In this document: piece after piece, positions 40,762 through 47,539 of the stretch
Position numbering within the stretch: the stretch's first letter is position 1
Layout of the letters: every line of letters begins with the position of its first letter
Program-made: the position numbers and the translations under genes
Notes under the pieces: model-generated
Told to the model about the DNA's origin: nothing
The model's database searches: none
What the model saw: the letters and a program-made list of their open reading frames with translations, nothing else
NCBI RefSeq assembly: GCF_000221185.1
Contig: NC_015865.1
Span: 1,674,001 to 1,738,000 of the forward strand
Length of the DNA stretch: 64,000 bases
Origin: Thermococcus sp. 4557
GTDB lineage: Archaea; Methanobacteriota_B; Thermococci; Thermococcales; Thermococcaceae
Direction of reading: 5' to 3'

Positions 40762-41334
40762 TTGGTCGACATGAGCAATGTAAAGCTCAGGATTGAAAAC
40801 ATCGTCGCTTCTGTGGACTTATTCACCCAGCTCAACCTTGAGAAGGTTATTGAAATCTGCCCCAACTCCAAGTACAACCCCGAGGAGTTCCCCGGCATAA
40901 TCTGCCGCTTCGAGGAGCCCAAGGTTGCTCTTCTGATATTCAGCTCAGGTAAGCTCGTCGTCACCGGCGCAAAGAGCGTCGAGGACATAGAGCGCGCCGT
41001 CAACAAGCTCATCCAGATGCTCAAGAAGATAGGCGCCAAGTTCGCCCGCGCCCCGCAGATAGATATCCAGAACATGGTCTTCAGCGGCGACATAGGCATG
41101 GAGTTCAACCTCGATGCCGTCGCTCTGAGCCTGCCGAACTGTGAGTACGAACCCGAGCAGTTCCCCGGCGTTATCTACCGCGTTAAGGAGCCGAGGGCTG
41201 TGATACTGCTCTTCTCTTCGGGCAAAATCGTCTGCTCCGGAGCGAAGAGTGAGCACGACGCCTGGGAAGCCGTTAGAAAGCTCCTCCGCGAGCTGGAGAA
41301 GTACGGTCTCATCGAGGAAGAGGAGGAGTGGTGA
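40762..41334 (+). CDS. tbp: TATA-box-binding protein
   Basis: 190 residues with two direct repeats of the saddle: [20 protein letters not shown]...[19 protein letters not shown]...[16 protein letters not shown], then [15 protein letters not shown]...[17 protein letters not shown]...[15 protein letters not shown]. The acidic EEEEEW tail is archaeal. The start is TTG 40762 (MVDMSN), the spacing after GGAGGTG being right and the N-terminus matching the Pyrococcus protein. The stop overlaps the deacetylase start. Confidence 0.98.
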
Positions 41335-42269
41335 AGGCTTTGGCCTTCTCCGTTATCTATTCTCCCGTTTTTCTGGAGCACAAACCGGAGAACTACCATC
41401 CCGAAAACCCTGAAAGGCTGCTGAGGGCCGTCAAGGCTCTCCAGCGGCTGGACCTCTGGAAGCCGGTCGAACCGGTTCCCGTTCCCGGGGAGGAGCTTCT
41501 GAAAGTTCATTCAAAGGAATACGTTGAGCTCGTGAGGGAACGGAGTAAGGGCTTCTCATACCTCGACCCCGATACCTACGTCTCCCCTGGCACGTGGGAA
41601 GCGGCTTTGAGGGCCTTTGGCGCTGCTAAAAAGGCGGTAGAACTAGCGCTCAATGAGAAAGGACTTTACCTGGCACTCGTCAGGCCGCCGGGCCATCACG
41701 CTGGGAAATCTGGAAGGGCTTTCAACGCCTCGACTTTGGGCTTCTGCATCTTCAACAACGCCGCATACGCCGCGAAGGTTGCGGAGGATCTGGTTGGGAA
41801 GGTTTTGGTCATAGACTTCGACGCCCACCACGGCAACGGGACGCAGGAGATACTCTGGGACGATGGGGAAGCCGTTCACATAGACCTGCACGAGCGTGAG
41901 GTCTTTCCCTGGAGCGGCTACGAGCACGAGGTTGGTGGCAAAGGTGCTGAGGGGACGAAAATCAACCTGCCGATGCCCCACTATGCGGGAGACGATGACT
42001 TCATCTACGCCTGGAACGAAGTCGTCCTGCCGGTTCTTGCCCAGTTCAGGCCGAAGCTCGTGATTATCTCGGCGGGCTTCGACGGCTTCCTCGGCGAGAA
42101 CCTGACTACTCTTCGCCTTAGCGAACTCTTCTTCGCCTACGCCGGCTCTACACTATCGCGCTACCCGCTCGCGGTGATTTTCGAGGGTGGCTACTCCGTC
42201 GGCCTCGACCGGGGTTTGCCCGCCTTCATCAGGGGTACCTCAGCGGTGAAATCCGTGAGGTTCCTGTGA
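41328..42269 (+). CDS. Histone deacetylase-superfamily amidohydrolase (class II/AcuC-like), C-terminus frameshifted
   Basis: 313 residues as read. All HDAC motifs are there: RPPGHHAG (His pair), [13 protein letters not shown] (zinc Asp and His), SAGFDG (second zinc Asp), and EGGYS (transition-state Tyr). Archaeal members deacetylate proteins or polyamines. The end looks shifted: an in-phase alternative frame from about 42242 continues [16 protein letters not shown] to a TAG at 42340, a natural-looking tail that one extra base near 42240 would join. Starts GTG 41328, GTG 41331 or TTG 41340 are all possible, overlapping the TBP stop. Confidence 0.85.
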
Positions 42270-42340
42270 GTCCGTCCTACGAGGCCCTCAGAACAGTCGC
42301 GCGGGTGAAGGAGATAGGGTCTGAGTGGTGGGAGCTGTAG
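42266..42340 (+). pseudogene. Detached C-terminal tail of the deacetylase
   Basis: Read in the other frame, this stretch encodes [18 protein letters not shown] and SEWWEL, ending at TAG 42340. It has Thermococcus-like codons and a sensible helical sequence but no start of its own; it reads best as the lost end of the preceding gene. The first 16-bp palindrome begins at the very next base. Confidence 0.55.
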
Positions 42341-42375
42341 CTTACCCGGGGGTAAGGAACTTACCCGGGGGTAAG
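42341..42375. repeat. Two tandem copies of a 16-bp palindrome
   Basis: CTTACCCGGGGGTAAG occurs at 42341-42356 and again at 42360-42375, separated by GAA. The second copy encodes the last residues and stop codon of the minus-strand ATPase gene. The same unit recurs at its 5' side. Confidence 0.9.
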
Positions 42376-43467
42376 TTGGAGGCCCTTAATGACCTCCTCA
42401 ACAACCGGGTCGGGAATGACGTACCCATCGGCGCTTTTATCCAGGTAGCCGTACTTCACCAGGTTCTTCAGGAGACTGGAGAACTTTGAGTCGTTTATCC
42501 TGCCCACTTTGAACTCCAGATACTCCTTTATATCGCTCCACCTTTCGTTGCCCATTGCAACGGCCTTAAGTATGAGCCCGTATCGCTTGCTGTGTGAAAG
42601 CAGGGAGGAAAGTTCATCCAATACCAGAGCCTGTGCTCTGTGGAACAGCTCATTCAAGGCATCCCTTTCCGGGAGCTTTCGGATTCCCCTGAGGTAGCCG
42701 TACATGCTCAGCCAGCCCACGATTCCGTCAAGTTTATCAACGGCTCGTTCGAGCTCCGAAGGGCTTATATTGATTCCAAGCTCTTTGAAACCCGTCTCCA
42801 GGAACTCGATGCTCCGTTCCCGGCTGAATCTCTCCAGCGTTATTTCCCTGGCGTACCTGCCGAAAAGCGGTTTCTTTGGATTATCAAGGCCAAGGAAGTC
42901 GTGGAGCATTCCAACCTCCGAACCCGTTAGAACGAAGGTTAAGTTTGGAAGGTTATCAACGGCATACGCTATCAGCCCATCGTACTGTATGCCGGAGAGC
43001 CGGAGATACTGGGCTTCGTCAAACGCTATGATAACCCGTTTTCCTTCACTCTCCGCCCAGGAGTCTACCTTTTCAAGGATTTCAGCTAGGTCGGGCTTCT
43101 TCTCGAACTCCACGTGAACTCCCGAGAGACGAATTCCCCGGATTGATGAAATTGCCTCCGTCATGCCGAGCCTGAGCTTTCCACTTGGGGGAAGGGATCC
43201 GATGAGCGAACTCAGGATTCTTTTCGCGAGGATTTCCTGCGGAATGGAACCGTGAGTGAAGTACAGGGAGCGAACGTCTATTTTGGCGTAAGGATAGCTT
43301 GATTCTGAGAGGGCCACGTTGAGGAGGGAGCTCTTTCCAAGACGTCGTATGCCCAGGATGAGAACCAGCCTCTCTTTGAGCTTCAAGGCCTCGTTAAACG
43401 CCTCAAGTTCTCTTTCTCTATCGTACAGGTCCTCTTTCCTTGTTTTAGGTTGAAGGTCGAACAGCAA
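42361..43467 (-). CDS. Archaeal AAA/STAND-type ATPase
   Basis: 368 residues from TTG 43467 (MLFDLQPKTRKEDLYDRE, the usual start of this family). Walker A appears as LGIRRLGKSSLL near residue 44, Walker B as VIIAFDEAQYL near 150, and FVLTGSEVGML as sensor region; a winged-helix-like C-terminus follows (YGLILKAVAMGNERWSDI, YGYLDKSADGYVIPDP). These archaeal ATPases are common, often mobile, and of unknown function. GGTGGGG is the Shine-Dalgarno. Palindromes flank both ends. It lies downstream of the McrB-like gene, with 59 nt between them when the TTG start is used. Confidence 0.85.
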   Translation of the reverse strand: MLFDLQPKTRKEDLYDRERELEAFNEALKLKERLVLILGIRRLGKSSLLNVALSESSYPYAKIDVRSLYFTHGSIPQEILAKRILSSLIGSLPPSGKLRLGMTEAISSIRGIRLSGVHVEFEKKPDLAEILEKVDSWAESEGKRVIIAFDEAQYLRLSGIQYDGLIAYAVDNLPNLTFVLTGSEVGMLHDFLGLDNPKKPLFGRYAREITLERFSRERSIEFLETGFKELGINISPSELERAVDKLDGIVGWLSMYGYLRGIRKLPERDALNELFHRAQALVLDELSSLLSHSKRYGLILKAVAMGNERWSDIKEYLEFKVGRINDSKFSSLLKNLVKYGYLDKSADGYVIPDPVVEEVIKGLQLTPG

Positions 43468-43502
43468 CTTACCCCACCGTAAGTTACTTACCCGGGGGTA
43501 AG
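43468..43502. repeat. 5' copies of the 16-bp palindrome at the ATPase promoter
   Basis: A diverged copy, CTTACCCCACCGTAAG (43468-43483), and a perfect copy, CTTACCCGGGGGTAAG (43487-43502), lie directly before the TTG start, the latter touching the TATA-like CTTATAACTT on the minus strand. The placement fits an autoregulatory operator, and the flanking of the gene also recalls an inserted unit. Confidence 0.85.
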
Positions 43503-43526
43503 TTATAAGGGTTTTGGAAAAAAGAA

Positions 43527-45806
43527 TCAACTGAAGCTCGCGAAGCCTATCTCGTAGAGCTGGCGAAGCATGCGAAGGGCTTTTTTAGCCGTGTGCTTGA
43601 AGCGGAAGTTCTCCTTTTGGGTTTCCCAGTTTTTGAGGAGGTCCATAACCTCCTCTCTCCTGAGCTCCCGGACGTCAATTCCTGCGTTCTCTGAGAGACA
43701 CAGCCCCAAAACGGCCTTTAGTGGTTCTTCGAGCTTCTTTCTGTTCCCGTGGAACTTGGGAAGAACCTTCATGAGAAGTGCAAGGTCGAAGATTTCGTCG
43801 TCACTCTCAAACTCGACGATTCCGTTTTCCCAACTCTCCCTGGCGCTCTGGACAAACAGTGCAATCTCATCAACGACGCGGTAGCCGAAGTGCATGTCGT
43901 ATGGCTCGAGGGCTTTGTTCAGTTCAGTGAGAATCCTCCAGTACTCCCTGTTTTTAGCGTCCCTTAGCTCCTTAACCGCTTCGTTTATCCCCTCTTTCGA
44001 ACGCGCGAGGAACTGGCCGCTCTTACCGCGGAGGTCTTCCAGTATTGAGGCCCTTAGAGCTTCAACGGCTTCGTTGGGCAGTCTACTTTCCCCGCTCTCC
44101 GGTGGGTATCCCTCAAGCTCGACATCGTGGAACTCTATTGTGAAAGCCCTGTCGAGAACCTTTGGGCTGAACGAGTAAGTGGTCTCGTCCATGTTCACCG
44201 TCCCGATGATGTAAAGGTTGGGCGGGAGGAAGAGTTCCTTGGGGATGCCCTCTTCTTCAATCTCATCAACGTCGTGGAGCCTCAGGGGCTCCCTTGTGAA
44301 TCCGTCCTCGTCTCTTCCGCTCTCGAGAACGCTGAGGAAGTCGGCGAAGTAGTACTCAACGTGGGCGAGGTTCATCTCATCGAGGATTACGAAATATGGG
44401 GTAGCATTGCCCCTGTTGTTTTCATAGTCTTTGATGGCTCTCATGATGAACTTCAGGAGGCTGGTTTTGTGGTATCCTCCCGTCAGGGGATTGTAGTAGC
44501 CGAGCAGTGGTTTGGAATCACGCCAATCAGGGCGGACCGAGAGGAACAGGAAGTTTTCCTTTGAATGATCCAGAAGCTCCGCCAGCTCCTGAACGATCTT
44601 TGTTTTACCTGTGCCCGTGAGGCCGGAGAGTATTATGAAGCCCTTGGTTTTGAGGGCGGTGTAGAACTGGGAGACGAGATGGAGTGGGTAGAGGTAGCCT
44701 CTTTTGACAAGATACCTGGTGAGGATCGATTCATGTTTATGCTCCTCATTGGGGTGGCGTTGTGAAGTACTTGTAATCATACGATTTCCCACCTCCCCTA
44801 ACATCTCAAGAAGTTTCCCTGTCGTGTCAGGATCCAACAGGTTACTAAACATAGGTCTGGAATACCATTCGCCGTTCTCTTTAATGAGGGCATCTAACCC
44901 AGTAATGCCTTCGGTGGGAATGGGTTTCAGAAGAAAAACCTTTCTATATCTTCCAGTTTTGCCCCAATACTTGAAGTCAAATTCGTTACAGATAACTGAC
45001 CATGAAGAAGCGTACAGACTCAATAATTTTTTCTCTTTTCTAATTCCAAAGAGAACGATGTCACCAATGCTGGGGACTTTTTCATCAACTTTTCTTCCCC
45101 AAGCTCTCGTGAATCCTGCATTATAGAGCTCCGGTCCCTTGTCTCCAAAACACTCTTTGATGACGTTTATGTCCACTTCTTGGTTCACGGTTTGTCTGTA
45201 ATTCTTTGAGGGTTGTGATTTAAATGTCTGTATGAATATCTTCCTGTCCTTGAGCCACCAGCCAAAATGGTCAGCTTCTAGAAGAGTTACCTTTTTCCCA
45301 CAAATTTGAAACATAATGTTCCTAAGCAATTCCAATCTCTTCAATACCTCTGAGTATCTCTTTGGTTGTCCCCAGCCAAATAACTCAAAGTACCAATTTG
45401 TTGTGTTGTTCCAAGGAGCAAAGTATTTCGGGTAATAAAAGGCTAAGGCTTCTGTCAATGACCCTTTCCCTAGTCCCTCAATTCCTTCTTGCCATGTTTC
45501 TAAAATTTTGTCAATGTCCTTTCTAATGTCCTCGGGTGATGTTGAAATGAGAATTGATACAAACTTCTCCATGATTACATCTAGTCTTTCTTTGTTTCGA
45601 AGGTGAAATCTCTGGAGATTTCTGCCAGAATACAAAAGACTAAATGCCTTCTTAAGCAGGTTATAGTCTTTATTTCTCGCTGCCTGTTCTATCAATTCTT
45701 TAAATTCTCTTGGACTGTTATTCAGCCAGCCTAAATTTTCTTTGTCAATGTCGAGATGCAGACAGTATAATCTTATCAAACCCCTAAGAGTTTTTTCGTT
45801 AATCAT
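43527..45806 (-). CDS. McrB-like AAA+ protein with large N-terminal region
   Basis: 759 residues. The C-terminal half is an McrB-type AAA+ domain: Walker A SGLTGTGKTK near residue 396, Walker B FVILDEMNLAHVEYYF near 480, and the McrB hallmark GTVNMDETTYSFSPKVLDRAF near 540. The N-terminal ~340 residues have an alpha-helical part (1-200) and then a possible EVE/YTH-like ligand-binding domain (SIGDIVLFGIRKEKKLLSLYASS...YRKVFLLKP), as reported for another Thermococcus McrB that binds N6-methyladenine. The N-terminal coding region is AT-rich. The ATG overlaps the nuclease stop (ATGA). Confidence 0.88.
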   Translation of the reverse strand: MINEKTLRGLIRLYCLHLDIDKENLGWLNNSPREFKELIEQAARNKDYNLLKKAFSLLYSGRNLQRFHLRNKERLDVIMEKFVSILISTSPEDIRKDIDKILETWQEGIEGLGKGSLTEALAFYYPKYFAPWNNTTNWYFELFGWGQPKRYSEVLKRLELLRNIMFQICGKKVTLLEADHFGWWLKDRKIFIQTFKSQPSKNYRQTVNQEVDINVIKECFGDKGPELYNAGFTRAWGRKVDEKVPSIGDIVLFGIRKEKKLLSLYASSWSVICNEFDFKYWGKTGRYRKVFLLKPIPTEGITGLDALIKENGEWYSRPMFSNLLDPDTTGKLLEMLGEVGNRMITSTSQRHPNEEHKHESILTRYLVKRGYLYPLHLVSQFYTALKTKGFIILSGLTGTGKTKIVQELAELLDHSKENFLFLSVRPDWRDSKPLLGYYNPLTGGYHKTSLLKFIMRAIKDYENNRGNATPYFVILDEMNLAHVEYYFADFLSVLESGRDEDGFTREPLRLHDVDEIEEEGIPKELFLPPNLYIIGTVNMDETTYSFSPKVLDRAFTIEFHDVELEGYPPESGESRLPNEAVEALRASILEDLRGKSGQFLARSKEGINEAVKELRDAKNREYWRILTELNKALEPYDMHFGYRVVDEIALFVQSARESWENGIVEFESDDEIFDLALLMKVLPKFHGNRKKLEEPLKAVLGLCLSENAGIDVRELRREEVMDLLKNWETQKENFRFKHTAKKALRMLRQLYEIGFASFS

Positions 45807-47539
45807 TGTACCACCTCCGGAATAAAACTCAAGTATCCAACTCCTTTCATCTTTAACAGCTCATCAAGACTAAACGCATGGGAAGATACGTGAAAGCTAA
45901 AAAATGGATATAATTTAAATCTAAAATCTTTTTTGTCATTTTTTCTTAATCTATGCTCAATCATGGTGAAAAGCCCACTAATTGTTCCAATATCCGCAAA
46001 GCCATTTCTACGGTGTTTAGATTCCTCAAAAAACACACTCTTCCTTCCAGGATACAGCACCACCGCAAACCTGCATCCCTTCAAGGCGTCCCGGTATGTG
46101 TGCATCTTGTAGATGTCCTCCAGCTTTGCCCACGTTTCGTATCTCCCGGTTTTCTCGGCGTTCTCGTCCAGTTCATCGAAATTTTCAATTTCCATGCTTT
46201 CGTCCACGGCATCAAGCTTGAACTTGGCGTCGAAGACCCCCACGAGCTGTGTGCCTTTGCTACTTGGATTGCCTGTGAAAAGCGAGAAATCTGGCCTGAG
46301 CGTCACCGAGTAGCTCCACTTTCCTGGAGTCAGCCGCTTGTTGTAGTAGAGCCGCCAGCCGTTGTCGAACTGGGCGTAAACGTCCCCCCTTTCTGAGAGT
46401 TCGCCTGCAGGTGTAACGACAATCCTGAGTCTCTTTTCTCCAAGGACCTCACCAAGTTCCTCAACAAGCCTGAAGAAAGCCCAGTACTCGTAAAGCTTCG
46501 CTACGTCCCTGCTGTCTACGGCCCTCTTCACTTCCTCAAAGAACGGAACGTAAGATGTGAACTCCCTGTAAAGCTCAAGCAGGTCGCGGTAGCCGTCGCC
46601 CTTCAAAAGCGTCTGGGAGGTGTACGGGAAGAGCGTCATCTCTCCAATGTCTTCCCAGACCCCGTCGCTTTTAATGAACTCAAGCTCTTTGAGGAGTTCA
46701 TTAACGGGATCAAGTTCTGCCGTGGGGTTGCTTCCAAAGGTCTCAACGACGCGCTCGCTCCATTCAACGAGCATGTTGAGGAAATATTTGACAAATCGAT
46801 TTTCCCGCGTGTCTGTGCTCTCGTACCGCCGGAATCCAATAACCTGTGTCGGGATGTAGCCGTCGAGGTGTTTCCGGAGCAAAACGTCTCCTCCCGCGGG
46901 GGCGAGGTATTCCGGGTGCTGGGCAATGGATAGGAGCGTTTCTGGAGTCACTTCATCGATCTCGTGGGGCCTCAACCATTCCTCCTCCGCCACCAGCTCC
47001 CTCTTCATGCGGTGCTTTACCGTTTCAAAGGCTCCGATGATTCGTTCACCGTTTGTTTGGAGGTAGTGGTAGGCAAAGAGTTCGTTGATGGGTTCATCAC
47101 TCTCAATGACCGTGAAAGCCGTTGGTGATTCCAGCTGGAAAGGCATGCTGACTGAGTACCTTACAACGTCTCCCGTGAGGAGCTCTATAAAGGAGTCCTG
47201 AATCTCCGCGAGCCGTTCTACCCAGTGACCGTCCAAGGACGAGAACCTTTTGGGGTACATCTTTGAGAGCTTGAGGGAGAGGACCTTTGCTGGGCGTTTA
47301 AAACAGATTTCTCCGTTTTTGATTCCCACTACCTCGGTGTCCCCGATAAAATTGCCGATTGACACTAGGAATGACCCGTTCTTCAGCTTTCTTGCCTTTG
47401 CCTTGCCGATAAAGACCTCGTCCGCGTCAATCTTCAGGATGTAACTGATCCATTCAAAGAGGTACCATCTCTCCTCATCCGAAAAAGCCCAGCACGCACT
47501 TTTGGTGGAGGTTATTACATCTCCATCCGCACACCTCAA
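45803..47539 (-). CDS. McrC-like PD-(D/E)XK nuclease (DUF2357 / PDDEXK_7)
   Basis: 578 residues. The N-terminal ~260 residues match the DUF2357 pattern (VERLAEIQDSFIELLTGDVV, FAYHYLQTNGERIIGAFETVK). The C-terminal nuclease domain begins with KLYEYWAFFRLVEELGEVLG and has LRPDFSLFT and VGVFDAKFKLDA, giving the D...DxK metal site. It should form a motor-nuclease complex with the McrB-like partner. Order is nuclease first, unlike E. coli mcrBC. The start is TTG 47539 with GGTG upstream and a TATA-like TTTTTATTAAT at about 47572-47581. Confidence 0.85.
   Translation of the reverse strand: MRCADGDVITSTKSACWAFSDEERWYLFEWISYILKIDADEVFIGKAKARKLKNGSFLVSIGNFIGDTEVVGIKNGEICFKRPAKVLSLKLSKMYPKRFSSLDGHWVERLAEIQDSFIELLTGDVVRYSVSMPFQLESPTAFTVIESDEPINELFAYHYLQTNGERIIGAFETVKHRMKRELVAEEEWLRPHEIDEVTPETLLSIAQHPEYLAPAGGDVLLRKHLDGYIPTQVIGFRRYESTDTRENRFVKYFLNMLVEWSERVVETFGSNPTAELDPVNELLKELEFIKSDGVWEDIGEMTLFPYTSQTLLKGDGYRDLLELYREFTSYVPFFEEVKRAVDSRDVAKLYEYWAFFRLVEELGEVLGEKRLRIVVTPAGELSERGDVYAQFDNGWRLYYNKRLTPGKWSYSVTLRPDFSLFTGNPSSKGTQLVGVFDAKFKLDAVDESMEIENFDELDENAEKTGRYETWAKLEDIYKMHTYRDALKGCRFAVVLYPGRKSVFFEESKHRRNGFADIGTISGLFTMIEHRLRKNDKKDFRFKLYPFFSFHVSSHAFSLDELLKMKGVGYLSFIPEVVQ

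Follow-up and report, generated by a model that had tools for sequence, protein, structure and literature searches.

Introduction

In the McrBC type IV restriction systems of E. coli and Thermococcus gammatolerans, McrC combines a DUF2357 domain with a PD-(D/E)xK nuclease, and McrB combines a variable N-terminus with an AAA+ motor. Such systems cleave modified DNA in a GTP-dependent manner, the modification being read by an N-terminal domain. In E. coli, mcrB precedes mcrC. The McrB of T. gammatolerans carries a reader of the YTH type, according to two reports (PMC12707154, PMC7641849). A different branch is described in PMC11090510, which presents a variant of McrB with an NxD signature, usually followed by E or D, states that no NxD McrB has been characterised so far, and reports insertions in the GTPase domain in general. 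The same paper describes the CoCoNuT systems, in which the McrC nuclease is often, though not always, missing or inactive, with a HEPN domain or another nuclease alongside. Long coiled coils in McrB are a further mark of a CoCoNuT.

The window analysed here, a stretch of 64,000 nucleotides that forms part of a 2.01-Mb single-contig genome (G000), contains a pair with the same McrC and McrB architecture as the E. coli and T. gammatolerans systems, followed by a gene for an ATPase of family PF01637 (Table 1). Unlike E. coli McrBC, this pair has mcrC before mcrB and an NxD rather than an NxxD signature.

Table 1. Positions of the genes and sequence elements in the window.
Feature	Position	Strand	Remarks
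McrC-like gene	45803..47539	-	578 aa; DUF2357 + PDDEXK_7 nuclease; RPDFSL...GVFDAKF active site
McrB-like AAA+ gene	43527..45806	-	759 aa; PADLOC PDC-M26A 3e-53; AAA_5/AAA_22
McrB N-terminal half, exchangeable module (residues 1-345)	44772..45806	-	
NxD signature N538 M D540, then E541	44187..44195	-	replaces NxxD
TATA-like CTTATAA	43503-43509		overlapped by the 5' double palindrome
5' double palindrome, proposed operator	43465..43504	-	40 nt; ends on start codon TTG
ATPase gene: ATPase_2 (PF01637) + C-terminal winged helix (MCM_C)	42361..43467	-	368 aa; proposed TTG start
3' double palindrome	42340..42378	-	contains the ATPase stop; its edge coincides with the end of the last frame of the convergent deacetylase-like gene

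Results

An McrC–McrB pair with an NxD motor

The McrC-like protein is encoded by the first of the three minus-strand genes and gave profile matches to DUF2357 (5e-27) and PDDEXK_7 (5e-15), bearing out the preliminary description of the locus, which had placed a DUF2357/PDDEXK_7 nuclease gene first. The PD-(D/E)xK residues within RPDFSL...GVFDAKF are intact in all of the McrC relatives matched (16/16), and the protein has both the DUF2357 domain and the PD-(D/E)xK nuclease of McrC in type IV restriction. The ATG of mcrB overlaps the stop codon of mcrC by 4 nt. Its product carries the motor motifs GLTGTGKT and FVILDEMN and, at the sensor-1 position, NMDE, that is, an AAA+ motor with Walker A, Walker B and the signature asparagine of McrB. 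NMDE aligns opposite NTAD of E. coli McrB, which was matched weakly in the PDB (2e-5), and it recurs in 14 of the 16 McrB open frames compared, the other two (L075, L097) being interrupted frames. The McrB-type motor proposed earlier is upheld by the AAA_5/AAA_22 domains, with the E. coli McrB match weak, and domains, active site and motor motifs together support the earlier claim of an McrC/McrB-like defence pair with McrC first. By analogy with known McrBC systems, McrC and McrB probably form a two-gene McrBC-type system that cuts foreign modified DNA.

The window's McrB has NxD followed by E, like the CoCoNuT/NxD branch in PMC11090510, and its relatives L076 and L095 have motor insertions, of a kind also reported in that paper. 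The nuclease sets the locus apart: unlike what is often the case in CoCoNuTs, the McrC active site is intact here and in the relatives noted above, and a profile search of the three proteins hit neither HEPN nor Hsp70, nor any further domain of CoCoNuT partners. The NxD signature of a CoCoNuT is thus present; a lost or inactivated McrC nuclease accompanied by HEPN or by another nuclease is not. In L076 and L095 the inserted segments comprise roughly 150-170 residues and lie soon after Walker A.

A constant motor and an exchangeable N-terminal half

By the genus we mean the 61 genomes, that of the window among them, in which relatives from its own genus were sought. McrB matches at E<=0.001 were obtained in 29 of the 61, many of them weak AAA matches, and 21 represent recognisable relatives or remnants. 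In the Genome_contigs set, a scan with McrB gave a single locus only. Across the genus relatives, identity in the motor, which spans residues from about 350 to 759, is about 67-93%, with a fragment in G057 lower. Residues 1-345, among the genus genomes, are shared over their full length only with G013 (88%); in the other relatives, similarity either is confined to the first ~190 to 285 residues (35-46%) or is missing from this part altogether. A phylum-wide search with residues 190-345 found no homologue beyond G000 and G013 (2/115 genomes). Since the motor is conserved and the front halves differ at one locus, these alignments indicate that the McrB front halves are swapped between species while the motor stays constant and the chromosomal position fixed.

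Unlike in McrBC systems with a known reader, the front half of McrB in the window could be assigned to none of the known reader families. Residues 1-345 matched no Pfam family and residues 193-345 no credible PDB chain, so the modified-base reader of the preliminary description is a candidate only. Single-sequence structure prediction of residues 1-345 gave a mean pLDDT of 36.5, an unusable model, and the front of another allele (L092) showed a weak resemblance to PDB 6n0s (E 0.0018). The closing part of this McrB is also encoded, with 79% identity, on a contig of 4 kb assigned to an Archaeoglobaceae MAG (L219), by transfer or by contamination.

An ATPase gene with its own start region and palindromes at both ends

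The third gene encodes a protein with matches above cut-off to ATPase_2 (PF01637, 2e-14; 54.3 bits vs 33.2) and to the MCM_C winged helix (1e-11; 44.7 vs 27), and an nSTAND match far below cut-off. Like the PF01637 ATPases 2qen and 2fna, it can be aligned over its full length, and sequence matches to these PDB entries reached 3e-67 and 3e-52, respectively. The longer open frame runs from 43530 down to 42361 on the minus strand; we place the start, probably, at the TTG at 43467 rather than at 43530, because the alignment pairs the first residue of 2qen with residue 22 of the longer frame and because the upstream extension would be translated operator DNA. With this start the gene no longer overlaps mcrB, and a gap of ~59 nt, containing the TATA-like box and palindromes, follows mcrB. 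The three genes do run in one direction on the minus strand, as previously described, and this gap, rather than an overlap, separates the ATPase from McrB. The gene itself had been recognised in that description, and the palindromes at both of its borders had been overlooked.

The ATPase frame reaches from one double palindrome to the other and has its start codon within the first and its stop codon within the second. A genome-wide scan allowing up to 3 mismatches found this palindrome nowhere except at the ATPase borders (control 0), and thus none in front of mcrC. Conservation differs between operator and gene (about 97% for the 5' operator vs 70% for coding DNA): the 5' operator is identical at 36-40 of 40 positions in 23 of 24 relatives, L046 being cut by a contig end, and the coding DNA has identities of 0.64-0.96 in those 23 and a median of 0.70 over all 24. 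L055, with a displaced start, was excluded from the operator count. The 3' pair is identical at a median of 31/39 positions, falling to 22-23/39 in five relatives. Two ATPases of genus g3 (L249, L250; 66-68% identical) lie at other loci, where this 5' pair is again found and a 3' pair is lacking. Because the 5' pair is constant and travels with the gene and the 3' pair decays, sequence comparison indicates that selection acts on the 5' pair, which is part of the ATPase gene, and that the 3' pair resembles an insertion-like relic of how the gene reached this locus. The ATPase alone lies between the repeats, with no recombinase of the kind that terminal repeats enclose in a transposon or insertion sequence, and a search against Rfam gave no match to the palindromes at the gathering threshold.

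The deacetylase-like gene (41328-42340), convergent with the ATPase gene, is frameshifted near its end: its body and its last ~34 residues are in different frames, and L079 reads straight through. The frameshift could be real or a sequencing error.

Separate distribution of the ATPase and McrBC

The usual gene order at the locus is ACS, iorA, iorB, then McrC-McrB where present, the ATPase where present, the deacetylase-like gene and TBP; the names iorAB, TBP and deacetylase-like are those we presume from sequence, and genes of this kind agree with Thermococcus. An ATPase orthologue, near full length and 68-96% identical, was found in 24/61 genus genomes, and all 24 copies lie at the iorB-TBP locus, the criterion being a neighbouring iorB, deacetylase or TBP gene, or more than one of these. 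McrB lies within about 80 nt of the ATPase in 11 of these genomes and 8.6 kb away in G030, is a remnant in G040, and is missing from 11; with a broken copy in G044, the ATPase thus stands alone at the same place in 11 genomes plus one. G052 has a piece of the gene at a contig end. Recent roaming of the ATPase within the genus was considered and dropped, since all 24 copies occupy one locus. The 8.6 kb in G030 (L069, 3717-12280) separate McrB from the ATPase and hold what we take to be an MBL-fold-like gene, two ADP-ribosylglycohydrolase-like genes and others, with a similar MBL-like gene in L088 (G040).

McrBC without the ATPase at the locus was found in G015, G018, G034, G039 and G047. Across 56 genomes, 13 have both, 12 the ATPase only, 5 McrBC only and 26 neither; too few data were available for G041, G049, G051, G052 and G053 to be counted. 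The association is positive by Fisher's test, in which kinship is ignored (odds ratio 5.6, p 0.0086), and the states are intermingled on a tree built from iorB of 52 genomes, with 25 changes vs 30.6 when labels are shuffled.

Beyond the genus the pattern is different. The ATPase adjoins McrB (in G040, a remnant) at 12/35 McrB loci, comprising 12/21 in the genus and 0/14 outside it, where the downstream flank is present at all 14. In L238 and L244, McrB is followed directly by the deacetylase and TBP genes, with no palindrome and no ATPase, as if, on the sequence, the ATPase had never been there. A conserved three-gene order, expected of a three-component system, was therefore not found; most of the 35 McrB loci have no ATPase beside McrB, and the three-component system of the preliminary description, which was to fall if most homologous loci lacked the ATPase, is left unsupported.

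Junctions resembling excision scars

Eight genomes (G004, G011, G007, G031, G050, G029, G058, G003) have no ATPase at the iorB locus and yet retain an intact double palindrome, and G039 has McrB, the promoter and a single intact palindrome. The junctions of G004 and G011 agree with the 5' flank of G032 in 47/50 positions and with the 3' flank of G030 in 46/50, and that of G039 matches the window's 5' flank at 50/50, its right side entering the end of the deacetylase gene. These three junctions look like fusions of both ATPase borders, that is, excision scars. Only the right side matches an ATPase-bearing genome well in G007, G031 and G050, and neither side does in G058, G029 and G003. Decayed palindromes were found in G015, G018, G047, G059, G019, G046 and G024, and a palindrome fragment in G042. 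The search pattern detected no palindrome in thirteen genomes and none within the short contig of G034.

Different palindromes in front of sister ATPases

Six genomes contain 16-24 PF01637 matches each. Among the 28 ATPases alignable from their start in these genomes, which include orthologues and are hence not independent, a perfect inverted repeat with arms of at least 7 lies within 70 nt upstream in 22/28 vs 20/153 control ORFs, six of the 28 lacking one. The median upstream arm is 8 for ATPases vs 4 for control ORFs, and in 20/28 the upstream palindrome beats dinucleotide shuffles of its own sequence at p<0.05. The palindromes are the same within groups and different between groups, at a position that is alike among sister genes. 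L167, L277 and a second group (L058, L060, L169) likewise have copies at the 3' end, and in some of these (L058, L169, L277; also L167) the stop codon lies in or touches the palindrome. This second group, of the TTGCACCC type, occupies two loci. L277, a PF01637 ATPase of G107 in genus g5, has its stop inside its own palindrome and is an independent two-ended case. In the window's genome, tandem PF01637 matches (L142, G000:C1:188991-190878) include a first one with TGTCGTACGACA upstream.

A test of whether operator similarity tracks the winged helix more than the ATPase core was positive with the initial setting (partial r 0.22, p 0.006) and not significant at the two stricter clustering thresholds, 0.50 and 0.55; co-variation was therefore dropped as proof, since it fails stricter clustering. 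PF01637 ATPases of ~460 aa, which we take to be of the DUF234 type, showed by eye no such consistent tandem palindromes. Sister ATPases mostly have promoter palindromes of their own that differ from one another, and they may regulate themselves via private operators. A function for the PF01637 ATPase family was not found in this analysis. Nor did our literature search, with most subscription journals outside its reach, find anything on operators or palindromes of this family, and the paralogue-specific palindromes and excision scars are observations of the present analysis.

Discussion

Judging from sequence comparison, we consider it probable (roughly 0.7) that the locus holds two independent units, an McrBC pair and a self-controlled ATPase, which share one iorB-deacetylase/TBP hot spot, because the ATPase comes and goes without McrBC and has its own promoter and palindromes. 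The ATPase is independent of McrBC in its distribution, its operator is conserved and the junctions at the locus are excision-like. By analogy, the N-terminal half of McrB would recognise a feature of foreign DNA, the NxD AAA+ motor would assemble and translocate, and McrC would cut the DNA. The ATPase would most likely be transcribed from its own promoter, with the TATA-like box, and would bind the double palindrome over its own start, thereby controlling itself; the different palindromes of its sisters would prevent cross-talk among these regulators. The 3' pair may be a relic of the gene's arrival at the locus, and several lineages may have lost the ATPase when the 5' pair recombined with the 3' pair, leaving one pair.

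A selfish, operator-bounded cassette is an alternative that we regard as unlikely. The palindromes would then be recombination sites, brought together by the ATPase protein, and the mobile form a circle of the ORF plus one pair, integron-like without a recombinase of its own. The palindrome-to-palindrome ORF with start and stop within, the 3' copies in other ATPase groups, where the stop codon in part lies within or against the palindrome (L058, L169, L277; also L167), the clean excision junctions and the orthologues at other loci in genus g3 are all consistent with such a cassette. The ATPase unit, however, encodes no recombinase, near-full-length copies in the genus occupy one locus and the second group two, the decaying 3' copies and constrained 5' copies are what a relic would leave, and simple recombination between repeats accounts for the loss of the ATPase. 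The wider proposal, that the ATPase family consists of operator-bounded cassettes in which each protein recognises a palindrome of its own and this palindrome regulates, bounds and permits excision and re-insertion, is equally doubtful. If it were true, regulation and mobility would share one site, and the neighbouring McrBC would be the host of such a cassette.

Less probable still is a three-component defence system in which the ATPase senses infection or regulates McrBC. The ATPase and McrB are adjacent and co-directional in 11 genomes, and their association at the locus in the genus is positive (odds ratio 5.6, p 0.009); given this co-occurrence, a functional link between the ATPase and McrBC keeps a low probability. 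Against a three-component system, the ATPase has its own TATA-like box and operators, occurs without McrBC in 12/56 genomes and is absent at 14/14 McrB loci outside the genus, and no palindrome lies in front of mcrC. On distribution, promoter and operators, we dropped the three-component operon as the leading reading. That the palindromes are hairpins, terminators or RNA elements rather than operators is highly improbable: those at both ATPase ends could fold as RNA, but the palindromes lie between the TATA-like box and the start codon, have no Rfam match, and differ among sister genes in sequence, not position.

With two independent units as the preferred reading, a three-component defence system that is probably false is replaced by two testable things. 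What is new is an NxD McrB with an exchangeable front and an ATPase with private, gene-bounding palindromes. The McrB series, with one NxD motor, swapped N-terminal halves and one locus, is a testable natural series, and it belongs to a branch that has no characterised member according to PMC11090510. For the ATPases, having a promoter palindrome private to each group suggests that members with the winged helix act as switches that bind DNA and control themselves; the scars offer a route to learning how these ATPases come and go.
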